A stretch of 64,000 nt of DNA. It comes from Halorhodospira halophila (GTDB lineage Bacteria > Pseudomonadota > Gammaproteobacteria > Nitrococcales > Halorhodospiraceae). The stretch spans positions 124,001 to 188,000 of the forward strand of contig NZ_NHSN01000025.1 in NCBI RefSeq assembly GCF_016653405.1, in the 5' to 3' direction. Positions 24,004 through 30,499 of this stretch are shown here, in pieces. The notes under the pieces were generated by a model. That model did no database searches. It saw nothing but the letters and a program-made list of their open reading frames with translations, and had not been told where the DNA came from. Both the position numbers and the translations under genes were made by a program. Position 1 is the stretch's first letter. The number at the start of each line of letters is the position of its first letter.

Positions 24004-24810
24004 ATGCACGAGACCACGCCCTCGGTTCGCCCCCCTGCCGTCGCCGGACGCTTCTACCCCGGCGAGGCGGAAGCCCTGCGCCGGTCCGTCCAGGAACTGC
24101 TCGCCGAGGCCGGCGAGCCGGAACAGGACCCGGCCCGGGCCCCCCGCGCCATGGTGCTCCCCCATGCCGGCTACCCGTTCTCGGGTGCCGCCGCGGCGCG
24201 GGGCTATCAGCGCATCGCCCCGATCCGCCAGCAACTGCGCCACGTGGTGCTGCTCGGACCGGCCCACTTCGTCGACCTCAGCGGCATCGCCCTGCCGATG
24301 GCCGACGCCCTGGCGACCCCGCTAGGCACGGTGCCCGTTAGCGACACCCTGCGCCGAAAGGCGCTGGCACTGGATAGCGTGCACATCGACGACACGGCCC
24401 ACGCACGCGAGCATAGCCTGGAGGTCCATCTGCCCTTCCTGCAGACCCTGCTCGAGGACTTCGACGTTCTCCCCCTGGTGGTCGGCCGCGGTCCGGCCGA
24501 GGCGTGCGGCCGCCTGATCGAGCGTTTCTGGCAACCGGACACCCTGGTGGTGGTCAGCTCGGACCTGAGCCACTTCCACGACGACCCCACTGCCCGGCAG
24601 CTCGACGCCGAGACCACCGCGGCCATCGAGGCCGGCACCTTCGAGCAGATCACCCCGCAGCGGGCCTGCGGCGCCGCCCCGCTGCGCGGGCTGCTGTGGT
24701 TCGCGCGCAAGCACGGCCTGCAGGCGCAGACGATTGCGCAATGCAACTCCGGCGATGTCACCGGCGATCGCTCCTCGGTCGTAGGGTATGGCAGCTATGT
24801 CTTCCACTGA
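24004..24810 (+). CDS. amrB: AmmeMemoRadiSam system protein B (Memo family)
   Basis: A 268-residue Memo-family protein, structurally related to class III extradiol dioxygenases. The metal-ligand residues of human MEMO1 are preserved: His54 in PHAGY, the His of GPAHF near residue 87, and the Cys in RACGAAPLRG near residue 221. SSDLSHFHDD is also conserved. The enzymatic role in bacteria is unknown. It overlaps amrA by about 23 bases and is divergent from amrS. GGGAGG precedes the ATG by about eight bases. Confidence 0.92.
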   Translation: MHETTPSVRPPAVAGRFYPGEAEALRRSVQELLAEAGEPEQDPARAPRAMVLPHAGYPFSGAAAARGYQRIAPIRQQLRHVVLLGPAHFVDLSGIALPMADALATPLGTVPVSDTLRRKALALDSVHIDDTAHAREHSLEVHLPFLQTLLEDFDVLPLVVGRGPAEACGRLIERFWQPDTLVVVSSDLSHFHDDPTARQLDAETTAAIEAGTFEQITPQRACGAAPLRGLLWFARKHGLQAQTIAQCNSGDVTGDRSSVVGYGSYVFH

Positions 24811-25399
24811 GCAAACTCCCATCGGCACCGACGTCCCGTCGGAGCACGGCGCCCTCCTGCCCCGCTTCGCCCGGCAGAACATCGCCCACCAGCAGGAGGT
24901 GGGCGAGCCGCTGCCCATCGCCTCGGGCCTGCCGGAGGCCCTGACCCGGCCCGGGGCCGCCTTCGTCTCGCTCCACCAGGGCGACGTGCTGCGTGGCTGC
25001 ATGGGCAGCCTGGTGCCCCGCCAACCGCTGGTGCGCAGTGTCATGGACTCGGCCCTGGAGGCCGCTTTTAGCGATCCGCGCTTCGACCCCGTCACCCGCG
25101 AAGAACTCGACGCGCTGACCGTCAAGGTCGCCGTCCTCGGCGAGGCCGAACCCCTGGAGGTGGAGCACGAGGCGCAACTGCTCGAAGAGCTGGTCCCCGG
25201 CGAGGACGGCCTGATCCTCCACGACGGTCTGCGCCGCGCCACCTTCCTGCCCGCGGTCTGGGAGGGCCTACCGGACCCGCAGGAGTTCCTCGCTCAGCTC
25301 AAGCTCAAGGCCGGCCTGCCCCCGGACTACTGGTCCAGGACCCTGCAATTCGCGCGCTACCGCTCGGTCACCTTCACCGACACACCACGCGCGCCGTAA
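24788..25399 (+). CDS. amrA: AmmeMemoRadiSam system protein A (AMMECR1 family)
   Basis: About 203 residues spanning one AMMECR1 domain. The family hallmark LRGCMGSL is near residue 75, and the C-terminal GLPPDYW...LQFARYRSVTFTD is typical. Function is unknown; conservation with Memo and a radical SAM protein across bacteria and archaea implies a joint modification reaction. Two start codons, ATG at 24788 and 24797, are possible. A degraded copy of its last 35 codons lies about 1.9 kb downstream. Confidence 0.9.
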   Translation: MAAMSSTEQTPIGTDVPSEHGALLPRFARQNIAHQQEVGEPLPIASGLPEALTRPGAAFVSLHQGDVLRGCMGSLVPRQPLVRSVMDSALEAAFSDPRFDPVTREELDALTVKVAVLGEAEPLEVEHEAQLLEELVPGEDGLILHDGLRRATFLPAVWEGLPDPQEFLAQLKLKAGLPPDYWSRTLQFARYRSVTFTDTPRAP

Positions 25400-25443: not shown

Positions 25444-25532
25444 GGAAGGGTGGCCGAGCGGACGAAGGCGGCTGACTCGAAATCAGCTGTGGGCCCTGCC
25501 CACCGGGGGTTCGAATCCCTCCCCTTCCGCCA
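25444..25532 (+). tRNA. tRNA-Ser (anticodon CGA)
   Basis: An 89-base tRNA with acceptor strands GGAAGGG and CCCTTCC, the serine-type discriminator G and an encoded CCA. The anticodon stem GCTGA/TCAGC encloses loop CTCGAAA, giving CGA, which reads UCG. The long variable arm (GGGCCCTGCCC region) and the T-loop GTTCGAATC confirm a class II serine tRNA. It lies about 45 bases after amrA and before the C69 gene. Confidence 0.96.
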
Positions 25533-25645: not shown

Positions 25646-27250
25646 TTGCCGCAACGCCTGATCACCCTCGCCGCACCGGCACTGATGATCGGCGGCGCTG
25701 CCAGCGCACCCACCCTGGCCGGAGGCGAGGCGAGCGAACTGCTCGCAGCCACGCCCGCGACCTACCCCAAGGAGGAGCGAGGCAAGAGCGTAGGGCTCTA
25801 CGTCGGCCACGAGCTGACCGAGGATGGTAGCGTCCTGCTCGGCGGCTACGGCGATGAGCCATCGAGCCACTTCATCGAGGTCATCCCGGCGCAGTCACAT
25901 GAGCCTGGCGCCACGATGGAGGTAGGCATCACAGACCAGGCCGACATCCCCGGCGAGCGCATCGAGATCCCGCAGGCAAGCCAGACGAACAAGTACATTG
26001 CCGTGCGCTACACCTCGTGGGCCGGCTTCCCGCCCCCGCTGGTCAACGGCGGCCTCAACGAGCAAGGGCTGGCGGCACGGGATATCTGGTCGCCGTCCCG
26101 CGAGGAACTCGTCGAGATGACCCCGACGCCCCAGCGCGGCCTCTCCTACAGCGATCATGCGCAGATCGCCATGGAGCGTGCCGAGTCGGCGAGGGGCGCG
26201 ACCGCACTCGTTGGCGAGATGGTCGAGGAGCACGGCCACGCGACCTACGGCGGCAACTCGCACCTGTTCGCCGACGAGGACGAAGGATGGATTCTGATCC
26301 AGCTCGCCGGCGGAGAGGGCCTCTGGGCTGCTAAGCGCCTGGCGCCGGACGAGGTACGGGTTTCTCGTCCCGGCTACATCGGCGAGATACCCGCGGACTT
26401 CCAGGACCACCCGGACTACATGGGTGCCGAGCACCTTATCTCCTTCGCCGAGGAGCAGGGGTGGTACGATCCGGAGCAAGACGGCGCCTTCCATTTCAAT
26501 GAGGTCTATGGCACGGATCGGCAGCCCGAGCAGGACGGCATGCAGATGCGCGCGCCGGCGGTCGCCGAGATGGAGCGCTGGCTTGAGGCGCGTGAGCCGG
26601 TCTCGCTGAGCGACATGAAGGAGGCCGTGCGCTCGCCGAAGATCACCAGCCAGACGGCGGGTTACGGGACGGTCGCCCACCTGCGGGACGACCTCGAGCA
26701 CCACACACTGCAGACCCTCTGGGCGACCGTGGCACCCTCGTCAGCGAGCCCGTTCATGCCGCACTACATTGGCCAGGAAGACGTTCCGGTCGAGTTCAAG
26801 TGGCACCGCTACCTGAGCCAGGACGAGGACGCCCAGTTCCTGCCGCCCGAACTCTTCGAGCAGGAAGCCAGCCGCTACGCCTTCCGGGAGTTCAAGCGCC
26901 TCTTCCACGCCATGGGCGGATCCCTGTGGAATGCCGGCCCGGCCCACGAGAAGCGCTACGAGGCGTTCTACCCGGAGGTCGAGGAGGCGCTGACCGCGTA
27001 TGAGGCGGCGCGGCGAGCCGAGCAAGAACAGGTGCACGCCATGGCCGGGGCTCTGATCGCCTCCGGGGAGCCGGAACTGGCCGAGACATACCTGACCGAG
27101 TACAGCAACACCCAAGCCCTAGATGCGCTCGACCTCGTCAGCACCATGGCCGACAGCATCGAGAAGCGCGGCCGCCTACTCTTCGGCGTCGAGACTTATC
27201 GCAGCGACGAGATCTATGAGGACCTCCTCCCCTACGACGGCTGGGAGTAG
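25646..27250 (+). CDS. Secreted C69 dipeptidase-like protein lacking the catalytic cysteine
   Basis: A 534-residue protein of the peptidase C69 (PepD/DipA) family. A TTG start at 25646 is chosen because GGAGG lies five bases before it and translation from there begins with a signal peptide (MPQRLITLAAPALMIGGAASA), likely cleaved after ASA. Family landmarks are VGHELTEDGSVLLGGYGDEP, GGLNEQGLAARDIW, ATYGGNSHLFADEDEGWILIQLAGGEGLWAAKRL and the WNAGPAHEK region. Known C69 enzymes use an N-terminal-nucleophile Cys just before this start; here Ser48 occupies that place and the whole protein contains no cysteine. It is strongly acidic, as expected of an exported halophile protein. Activity may be altered or lost. 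It is flanked by tRNA-Ser and an amrA remnant. Confidence 0.8.
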   Translation: MPQRLITLAAPALMIGGAASAPTLAGGEASELLAATPATYPKEERGKSVGLYVGHELTEDGSVLLGGYGDEPSSHFIEVIPAQSHEPGATMEVGITDQADIPGERIEIPQASQTNKYIAVRYTSWAGFPPPLVNGGLNEQGLAARDIWSPSREELVEMTPTPQRGLSYSDHAQIAMERAESARGATALVGEMVEEHGHATYGGNSHLFADEDEGWILIQLAGGEGLWAAKRLAPDEVRVSRPGYIGEIPADFQDHPDYMGAEHLISFAEEQGWYDPEQDGAFHFNEVYGTDRQPEQDGMQMRAPAVAEMERWLEAREPVSLSDMKEAVRSPKITSQTAGYGTVAHLRDDLEHHTLQTLWATVAPSSASPFMPHYIGQEDVPVEFKWHRYLSQDEDAQFLPPELFEQEASRYAFREFKRLFHAMGGSLWNAGPAHEKRYEAFYPEVEEALTAYEAARRAEQEQVHAMAGALIASGEPELAETYLTEYSNTQALDALDLVSTMADSIEKRGRLLFGVETYRSDEIYEDLLPYDGWE

Positions 27251-27300
27251 GATCCTTCCTCGGCCTTGAGCGAGAGGTGCGACCACGACGGCCCGGCAAC

Positions 27301-27406
27301 AAAGTCGGCCTGCCGCCGAATCACTGGTCCCCGACGCTTGTATTTCGCCCGCTATAGCTCGCTGAGCTTCACGGATCCGCCGCCGCAGGAGCAAGAGGAG
27401 GCGTGA
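27301..27406 (+). pseudogene. 3' remnant of a second amrA copy
   Basis: Translation gives KVGLPPNHWSPTLVF, then after a one-base shift near 27343-27345 FARYSSLSFTDPPPQEQEEA and a stop. This matches the last 30 residues of the intact AmrA (KAGLPPDYWSRTLQFARYRSVTFTD...) at most positions, with DNA-level similarity starting at the same lysine codon. An extra T in TTTCGCC explains the frameshift. Nothing upstream of the lysine codon resembles amrA, so only the C-terminal tip survives. Confidence 0.8.
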
Positions 27407-27421: not shown

Positions 27422-27470
27422 TTGACGAGGTCGCGACCTCTACCCCAGACTAGACAGATCGTTCTATCTG
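27422..27470 (+). promoter_or_regulatory. Putative promoter/operator of the TetR gene
   Basis: A TTGACG (27422-27427) could be a -35 element. GAGGTCGCGACCTC (27427-27440) is a perfect 14-bp palindrome. Downstream, CAGAT (27455-27459) and ATCTG (27466-27470) form an inverted repeat with a six-base spacer, overlapping TAGA-N8-TCTA (27451-27466). Both repeats lie just before the TetR start, the usual place for an autoregulatory operator. Confidence 0.45.
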
Positions 27471-27484
27471 ATCCGGTGTATCGC

Positions 27485-28051
27485 ATGATCAACAGCAAGC
27501 GCGAAAATCTGCTCGACACGGCCGAGCGGCTTTTTTACTCGGCCGGCTTCCACGCCACGGGTATCGACCGCGTCATCACCCAGGCGGGGGTCGCCCGGAT
27601 GACGCTGTACAACCACTTCCCATCCAAGGAGGCACTGGTGGAGGCGGTGCTCGCCCGCCGCTACGAGCGCTATCTCCAGGATCTGCGCGCTGCCGTCGAC
27701 AACGCGGCGCCGGGTGAGGCCGTCACCGCACTGGCACAACGCCACTGCCGTTGGCTGGAGACCACCCCCGGTCGCGGGTGCATTGTCCTCAAGGCCATCG
27801 CCGAGTACGAGCAGGATCATCCGGTGATCGCCGAGCAGGGTCGCCGGCTCAAGCGCGAGCTCCTCGCCGTCATCGGCGACGCCCTGGAACGCGACCGCTC
27901 GAGAGGCGATCCGAAGCTGGCGGAACGCCTGCTGATGGTGCTTGAGGGGGCCAACGCCCTGGTCCCGGTGCTCGGCGCGGCCGCCGCCACCGAGCACTTG
28001 CAGGGGATTATCCCCGCCGTCCTCGCGACTGCGCAGGGTGCGGAATCATGA
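27485..28051 (+). CDS. TetR/AcrR family transcriptional regulator
   Basis: A 188-residue repressor-type protein. The N-terminal HTH is clear: NLLDTAERLFYSAGFHATGIDRVITQAGVARMTLYNHFPSKEAL (about residues 8-52). The ligand-binding C-terminal half has the all-helical pattern of the family, with RHCRWLETTPGRGCIVLKA in the centre. The ATG at 27485 puts the HTH at the normal place. Its stop overlaps the start of the MFS transporter gene in an ATGA, so it probably controls that transporter together with itself. Confidence 0.92.
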   Translation: MINSKRENLLDTAERLFYSAGFHATGIDRVITQAGVARMTLYNHFPSKEALVEAVLARRYERYLQDLRAAVDNAAPGEAVTALAQRHCRWLETTPGRGCIVLKAIAEYEQDHPVIAEQGRRLKRELLAVIGDALERDRSRGDPKLAERLLMVLEGANALVPVLGAAAATEHLQGIIPAVLATAQGAES

Positions 28052-29250
28052 GGCCCGTGGGTGCTGTCGGCTACGCTGTTCTCGGGGCCGGACTGATCGC
28101 GGTCGCCTTCGGGCTCGCCCGATACGCGTTCGGGCTGTTCGTCCCCGCCATCCGCACAGAGCTGGGGCTCTCGGCAGACGCCGTCGGCGTCATCAGTTCG
28201 ATGGCCTTTGTCAGCTTCTGCTTCGCCAGCCTGATCGCGTCACCTATCGTCGACCGCCTCGGTCCGCGCTACGCGGCCGTGGTCTCCGGTCTTTTTGCGT
28301 TCGGTGGCCTTATGCTGATCAGCCAGGCGGCTGACGCGCTGACGCTCGGCGCCGGCGTCTTCGCCTGTGGCATCTCCACCGGGCTAATGATGCCGGCGCT
28401 GTCCGCCGGTGCGCAGGTGGCCGTGCGGGCCGACCTCCGCGGGCGGGTCAACGCCGTGATGAACGCCGGCACCAGCTTCGGCCTGATCCTGTGCGTCCCC
28501 ACGGTACTACTGCTCAGCGGGGCCTGGCGCCTGGCCTACGGCTCGTTCGCGGCCCTCGCAGCCATGGGCGTCATTGCCGCCCTGTTCCTGATCCCGAAGA
28601 CGGCAAGGGCGCAGCCCGGCGACAACGCTCCGGCCTCCGGGGCCTACGAACCCGGGCGGTGGCTGCCAGTGGTCGGGCTGACCGTGTTCTGCGTCGCGAT
28701 GGGCCTGACCTCGTCCGCCTACTGGATCTTCGCGCCCGACCTGGTCGTGGAAATGGGCGATCTTCCCGAGAGGCTCACCGGGCTGCTTTGGTTGGCCGTC
28801 GGCATCACCGGTCTAGCCGGGGCGTGGGCGAGTGACCTCGGTGACCGGTTTGGCGCCCCCACCACCCAGGCCATGGCGCTGGTCGCCCTCGGCGCTGCCA
28901 CCGGGCTCGTGGCCATCGCCCCGGGCGAGTGGTGGGTCGCGCTGTTCTCGGCCGGCGTCTTCGGTTGGGCGTTCATGACCCTAACCGGACTGTACCTGGT
29001 TACCGGCGTCCGACTGTTGCGTCAACGGCCCTCGCTGGGACCGGTGGTCCCCTTCCTGGCGATCACCGTCGGCCAGGCCCTCGGATCGCCGCTGGTCGGC
29101 TGGGCCATCGCGCAGGCCGGCTACACGGAGGCGTTCGTGGCCTTCGCAACGCTCGCACTCCTCGTGGCGGCGGCCTCGTTCCTCTTCCCGCGCACGGCAC
29201 CGGACGGGGCTGCCGTGGAGGGGCCACCGCCGTCGGCAACCCGAACGTAA
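28048..29250 (+). CDS. MFS transporter (YbfB/YjiJ-like)
   Basis: A 400-residue major facilitator with about 12 membrane segments. The first segment AGLIAVAFGLARYAFGLFVPAIRTELGLS is the characteristic start of the YbfB/YjiJ group, and DRLGPRYAAVVSG is the conserved loop between segments 2 and 3. It starts within the stop codon of the TetR gene. It is probably an exporter of a small toxic compound sensed by that regulator; the substrate cannot be predicted. Confidence 0.88.
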   Translation: MRPVGAVGYAVLGAGLIAVAFGLARYAFGLFVPAIRTELGLSADAVGVISSMAFVSFCFASLIASPIVDRLGPRYAAVVSGLFAFGGLMLISQAADALTLGAGVFACGISTGLMMPALSAGAQVAVRADLRGRVNAVMNAGTSFGLILCVPTVLLLSGAWRLAYGSFAALAAMGVIAALFLIPKTARAQPGDNAPASGAYEPGRWLPVVGLTVFCVAMGLTSSAYWIFAPDLVVEMGDLPERLTGLLWLAVGITGLAGAWASDLGDRFGAPTTQAMALVALGAATGLVAIAPGEWWVALFSAGVFGWAFMTLTGLYLVTGVRLLRQRPSLGPVVPFLAITVGQALGSPLVGWAIAQAGYTEAFVAFATLALLVAAASFLFPRTAPDGAAVEGPPPSATRT

Positions 29251-29905: not shown

Positions 29906-30499
29906 TCACAACTGCTTGATCCAGAACTGCAGGGGCTTATCGGTCTCCGCAGGCTCGTCGACCTGCTTCCAAGGGTAGTAGGCGATCAGCTCCTCGCGGG
30001 GCGTATACCCGAAGTGCCGCCAGACGGGGTCCAGTGGCTGGTAGTCCGCCGGGCGGAGCGGATGGGCCGGATCACGGACCACAGTGCACAGGGTGGCCCA
30101 CTGGTAGTCGCCACAGCTTCGAGCATGGCGCTCCCGGACATCGAAAAAGTGCCGGTAGAACCCCCGGCCGCGATAGGCCGGCAGGAGGATCGACTCGGCC
30201 AGGTAGAACACCTGCCCCGGATCGAAGCCTTCATCGATAAACGGCTTCTGGATCCGCGGGGACTCGTCCGTCAGCGGCATGGCCGTCGACAGCCCGACCA
30301 CCTCGTCGCCATCCACAACCACGGTGGCCAACGCCCACGGGGCGTCGAGGTAAAAGCGCAGGAAGTACCGCTCCTCCTCCATGCTGCCGTCGTAGAGGTA
30401 GGGCCATTCCCGGAAGACCTGCAGCCGCAGCGCGGCGATCTGCTCAAAACGCTGGCCGATCTCCTCGCCCTGAAGGTATTCGATGTGCGGCTCGCTCAT
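29906..30499 (-). CDS. GNAT family N-acetyltransferase
   Basis: A 197-residue protein with a GNAT fold: ALATVVVDGDEVVGLSTAMPL (central strands), and the acetyl-CoA loop LLPAYRGRGFYRHFFDVRERHA (R/Q-x-x-G-x-G/A, about residues 105-125). The C-terminal part, VWRHFGYTPREELIAYYPWKQVDEPAE, recurs in a subgroup with unknown substrates. It lies between the DUF2867 and AhpD-like genes on the same strand, which says little about its target. Confidence 0.82.
   Translation of the reverse strand: MSEPHIEYLQGEEIGQRFEQIAALRLQVFREWPYLYDGSMEEERYFLRFYLDAPWALATVVVDGDEVVGLSTAMPLTDESPRIQKPFIDEGFDPGQVFYLAESILLPAYRGRGFYRHFFDVRERHARSCGDYQWATLCTVVRDPAHPLRPADYQPLDPVWRHFGYTPREELIAYYPWKQVDEPAETDKPLQFWIKQL

Follow-up and report, generated by a model that had tools for sequence, protein, structure and literature searches.

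A frame-broken amrA 3′-end fragment, best read as a scar of past DNA exchange, at an accessory-gene junction in Halorhodospira halophila

Introduction

How does the tail of a second amrA gene come to lie between two accessory genes downstream of an intact amrA in Halorhodospira halophila? The original prediction, made from the letters of the DNA, held that a short stretch beyond a C69-family peptidase gene encodes the end of a related amrA, and suggested that the peptidase gene had arrived by duplication or by recombination with DNA bearing such an amrA. We examined this locus in a window of 64,000 nucleotides (contig NZ_NHSN01000025.1, positions 124,001 to 188,000) and compared it with congeners and more distant relatives, designated here by our own genome labels (G001 and so on). 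The features concerned are the following, in window coordinates.

24788–25399, plus strand: intact resident amrA (AMMECR1 / AmmeMemoRadiSam system protein A); PF01871 154 bits, TIGR04335 199.6 bits against a cut-off of 99
25444–25532, plus strand: tRNA-Ser(CGA); ARAGORN, Rfam RF00005 55.3 bits
25598–27250, plus strand: C69-family peptidase gene; PF03577 67.7 bits against a cut-off of 23
27300–27406, plus strand: amrA 3′-end remnant, its frame broken by one extra base and its amrA-like stop retained
27451–27469, plus strand: operator-like inverted repeat before tetR, TAGACAGATCGTTCTATCT-like, recognized by eye without a motif statistic
27485–28051, plus strand: tetR regulator; PF00440, start set by congener comparison
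28048–29250, plus strand: MFS transporter paired with tetR; PF07690
29273–29875, minus strand: AhpD-domain / YciW-related gene (ahpD), with relatives elsewhere in congeners
29906–30499, minus strand: gnat, a name we presume from likeness, with no NCBIfam match; right anchor of the variable segment, adjoining tRNA-Ser in G001, G005 and G007

Results

We compared amrA genes with the window by blastn, and with the resident gene masked the best amrA-derived match fell on the remnant. Nucleotides 519–593 of resident amrA align to 27300–27375 (75% identity over 76 nt, 49.1 bits, E=1.2e-7), amrA of G006 aligns to 27300–27383 (77.4% over 84 nt, 63.5 bits, E=5.3e-12), and the G005 and G002 genes score 53.6 and 51.8 bits. 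Chance similarity might be entertained, as the stretch is short and the genome rich in GC (69.3 for the window), but it is barely conceivable here: E values in the window run from 1e-7 to 5e-12, and the 49–63 bits of the remnant compare with maxima of 29.2 to 33.7 bits in 2000 shuffles per query of the intergenic stretch (block-shuffled dinucleotides), a comparison that refutes this explanation. Homology to amrA starts at 27300, and the stretch between the C69 stop at 27250 and that point is without it. The remnant reads as VGLPPNHWSPTL in one frame, breaks after VGLPPNHWSPT(L) and continues in the next frame as YFARYSSLSFTDPPPQEQEEA-stop; because two frames are needed, it carries a single extra base in what is otherwise an amrA-like end with a stop, corresponding to the last ~34 codons of the family. 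Two marks of a pseudogene, above-chance similarity to amrA and a disrupted, truncated frame, occur together, and sequence comparison confirms 27300–27406 as a genuine fragment of the amrA 3′ end (AMMECR1 family). The predicted C-terminal tail with one extra base is therefore real, its coordinates had been given correctly to within one or two bases, and its similarity to amrA survives proper comparison. Intact amrA indeed lies 1.9 kb upstream (start-to-start spacing 1994 nt), and the tail has diverged from it as claimed.

Just ahead of the remnant, 27257–27289 shows a likeness of 24–33 nt to the antisense strand of argH (92% over 24 nt within the own genome, E=0.0035; also in G004 and G010), which could be due to chance or represent another minute gene fragment. 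Among the neighbouring genes, C69 scores below the cut-off of the C69 dipeptidase equivalog (65.5 of 250), and several congener matches to tetR open about 20 residues into the longer ORF. GC3 values of 84.9 for C69, 84.0 for tetR and 86.0 for the MFS gene, against 86.3–88.7 in the amr genes, give no clue to origin. The inverted repeat ahead of tetR is probably a TetR operator; similar forms of this repeat and of a TTGACG hexamer at 27422–27427 were seen by eye before tetR in G006, G007, G008 and G016.

The remnant ends ~15 nt before the hexamer and its operator-like repeat, a placement that would suit bases now serving a neighbour, for instance by contributing an upstream element to the tetR promoter or by forming part of the C69 transcript end. 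We regard such a present role as very unlikely, as the congener tetR–MFS pair has a similar promoter region without any amrA tail.

Comparison of seven congener loci with amrA, out of eight congeners (G004 has no amrA match), places the remnant between two conserved anchors. The left anchor is amrS–amrB–amrA–tRNA-Ser and the right anchor gnat–orf30577–tolC–RND. All seven loci carry tRNA-Ser(CGA) downstream of amrA, at a distance of ~40 to 120 nt in G002, G003, G006, G007 and G008 and of 1.5 kb in G001 and G005, where a porin-like gene lies between. The genes gnat, orf30577, tolC and RND recur on the far side, with the full set not in each locus, gnat inverted in G007 and some congener contigs stopping early. 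From tRNA-Ser to gnat the gap measures ~50 nt in G007 and 150 to 180 nt in G001 and G005. It holds a polyphosphate:AMP phosphotransferase gene in G006, LEA_2 and DUF945 genes with three ORFs without a Pfam match in G002, a DUF945 gene and others in G008 and a CheB–CheR gene in G003, assignments that draw in part on a search with ten of the listed ORFs. In the own genome, ~4.4 kb between tRNA-Ser and gnat contain C69, the amrA tail, tetR–MFS and ahpD. Gene content thus differs between the same flanks across the seven congener loci, which places the amrA tail within a variable segment, where C69 and tetR–MFS meet. The original prediction proposed looking for an amrA–tRNA–tetR order lacking C69 in related genomes; its amrA–tRNA-Ser part is present without C69 in congeners, eight of eight of which have no C69 match.

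Two side observations concern these loci. The porin-like gene lies at L085 3481–4942 and L086 2267–3753, the G005 copy matching Porin_O_P with 34 bits, and amrA of G002 (L090 5780–6475) has ~40 extra in-frame codons in its first half relative to the window gene.

Some integrative elements enter gene 3′ ends and displace their tails. A full and a partial amrA in the same orientation flanking accessory genes would be consistent with such an element having entered the amrA 3′ end and pushed the original tail aside, an origin that the details of the block make extremely unlikely. The native tRNA-Ser follows intact amrA, as in five congeners, and with this join intact integration into the amrA end does not fit. 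C69, which is no integrase, is the sole large ORF separating the two tails, and none of the scanned large ORFs of the block (C69, tetR and MFS) is one. The tails are 75% alike with no near-identical direct repeat, searches of the block ends returned no convincing direct repeats, a search for a copy of the tRNA 3′ end as an att site found the tRNA itself alone, and the resident tail groups with G006, like the rest of the gene. Near-identical end repeats with an integrase between them, the signature of an integration scar, are missing from the block. The earlier description of a block with a full amrA on one side and a partial one on the other is accurate for the sequence; it supplies no mechanism, there being neither a convincing direct repeat nor a tRNA 3′-end copy.

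The remaining question is whose tail this is. Ancestry was analysed on a 78-nt codon-phased block comprising all alignable bases, in which one base of the break codon was taken from the wrong side, altering 1 of 78 sites in the identity, tree and site tests. Across this block the remnant is 72% identical to resident amrA, 77% to G006 and 69% to G002, and resident amrA is 83% identical to G006. At the seven sites where the resident gene alone departs from G006 and the majority, the remnant carries the majority base at five, the resident base at one and neither at one; it splits two to two over the four sites where resident amrA and G006 depart jointly. A likelihood comparison of 13 placements favoured the branches to G002 and to G008, with the G002 branch best, and the AU test (p<0.05) rejected three, namely those leading to G001, G005 and the G002–G003–G007–G008 group. 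With 78 bases only, this tree cannot settle the origin of the remnant.

Much of the divergence appears to predate the loss of the gene. Relative to resident amrA, the remnant keeps 17 of 26 residues despite 22 base differences in 78, compared with a mean of 12.6 residues under simulated random change (P=0.010), which argues that much divergence occurred while the sequence was coding. The corresponding P values are 0.087, 0.0003 and 0.012 with G006, G002 and G005 as references, and third-position differences from the resident gene are weakly enriched (11 of 22, P=0.079). These comparisons suggest that the tail diverged partly under coding constraint, with a weak signal against G006, the closest gene.

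One alternative is that resident amrA was long ago duplicated in tandem, alone or together with the tRNA, and that the second copy later lost nearly all of its length and became separated from the first by insertion of C69. This would account for remnant and resident gene sharing strand and order 1994 nt apart, and the placement of the remnant as sister to resident amrA has an AU p of 0.15 on the 78 bases. We consider this history rather unlikely. The remnant has the relatives' base at five of seven resident-specific sites, no tRNA copy lies behind it, and the 72% identity of remnant and resident, set against 83% for resident and G006, means that any duplication must be older than the split of the own genome (G000) from G006, where a second copy is absent. 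Each of the seven congeners with amrA has one copy (two rows in G002 are pieces of one gene), which makes a long-kept second copy less likely. The source of the remnant is thus probably an amrA lineage different from that of the resident gene, one of the two origins raised in the original prediction, with old duplication less probable.

We searched for further copies of the tail and for its donor. In the own genome, a protein search found the resident gene as the sole amrA match, and no amrA tails beyond resident and remnant were detected. Across 20 genomes including the own, strong matches to the remnant away from its site were amrA genes only (G001, G002, G005 and G006), and no second such fragment appeared in the own genome or the 19 relatives; the remnant is accordingly unique in this set. 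Weak matches (E 0.002 to 0.009) fall ahead of the tail in G004 and G010, and those in G012 and G014 cover 27 to 35 bases in its last third. A thin scan of 369 genomes of the class at E<=1e-4, with at most two candidates scored in the listed genomes, matched the tail at its own place alone, and no donor with amrA beside tetR or C69 was found in the genomes searched.

The accessory genes themselves have separate distributions. C69 matches occur in five of 59 genomes including the own, and a search of 54 genomes of the order gave no donor, the best matches outside the own genome reaching 46–49% identity. The suggestion that C69 might be found next to amrA elsewhere fails in these relatives: G019 and G025 carry two of the closest C69 relatives without an amrA match, and ~1.2 Mb separates the pair in G036. 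The tetR–MFS genes occur as an adjacent pair elsewhere in the genomes of G006, G007 and G008 (62–75% identity), an MFS relative is present in eight of eight congeners, and ahpD relatives also lie elsewhere in congeners; none of these tetR–MFS or ahpD places has an amrA tail in the 20-genome remnant search. Flanks of the G006 tetR–MFS pair are spread across four contigs in the own genome, which leaves a clean excision site unreadable. Of the two routes in the original prediction, recombination with DNA that carried its own related amrA is plausible for the tail and duplication of the resident gene less so, and the link to C69 is unproven. The amrA tail may just as well have arrived together with the tetR–MFS side, or earlier than C69 and tetR–MFS alike.

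Discussion

From the available sequence, the remnant is best read as a non-functional amrA scrap, an ordinary scar of past DNA exchange, and we think it likely that this fragment stayed behind at a junction after the variable segment took up foreign or rearranged DNA. DNA from a related lineage with its own amrA would have entered the segment, probably captured through homologous pairing on one side and illegitimate joining on the other; the frame-breaking base would have been acquired at capture or later. The usual tRNA-Ser is absent behind the remnant, and a second deletion or an odd gene order in the donor must therefore be assumed. More tentatively, foreign DNA might enter repeatedly at the amrA–tRNA-Ser end in this genus, with amrA giving the homology for capture and the remnant a fossil from an unsampled sister lineage.

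The remnant records a single join within a variable segment of the chromosome and has small significance beyond its own genome, as a small example of accessory-gene exchange beside a conserved gene–tRNA pair. If amrA is a shared crossover point, the locus could also mark gene flow between species of the genus.

Relative to AmmeMemoRadiSam system protein A (TIGR04335 / PF01871), the remnant represents the last ~34 codons, with more than 80% of the protein missing and the frame broken. The process described as homology-facilitated illegitimate recombination (PMC3240628) could, through a homologous end and an illegitimate join, yield an incomplete copy of an anchor gene; here the process would be deduced from its product, the homologous end is not locatable and the usual tRNA is missing after the tail. 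No difference was observed from known bacterial gene remnants, the 3′ fragments found in variable segments, which the present case resembles in that a core gene is represented by a short end with a broken frame, placed at an accessory-gene junction between conserved anchors.
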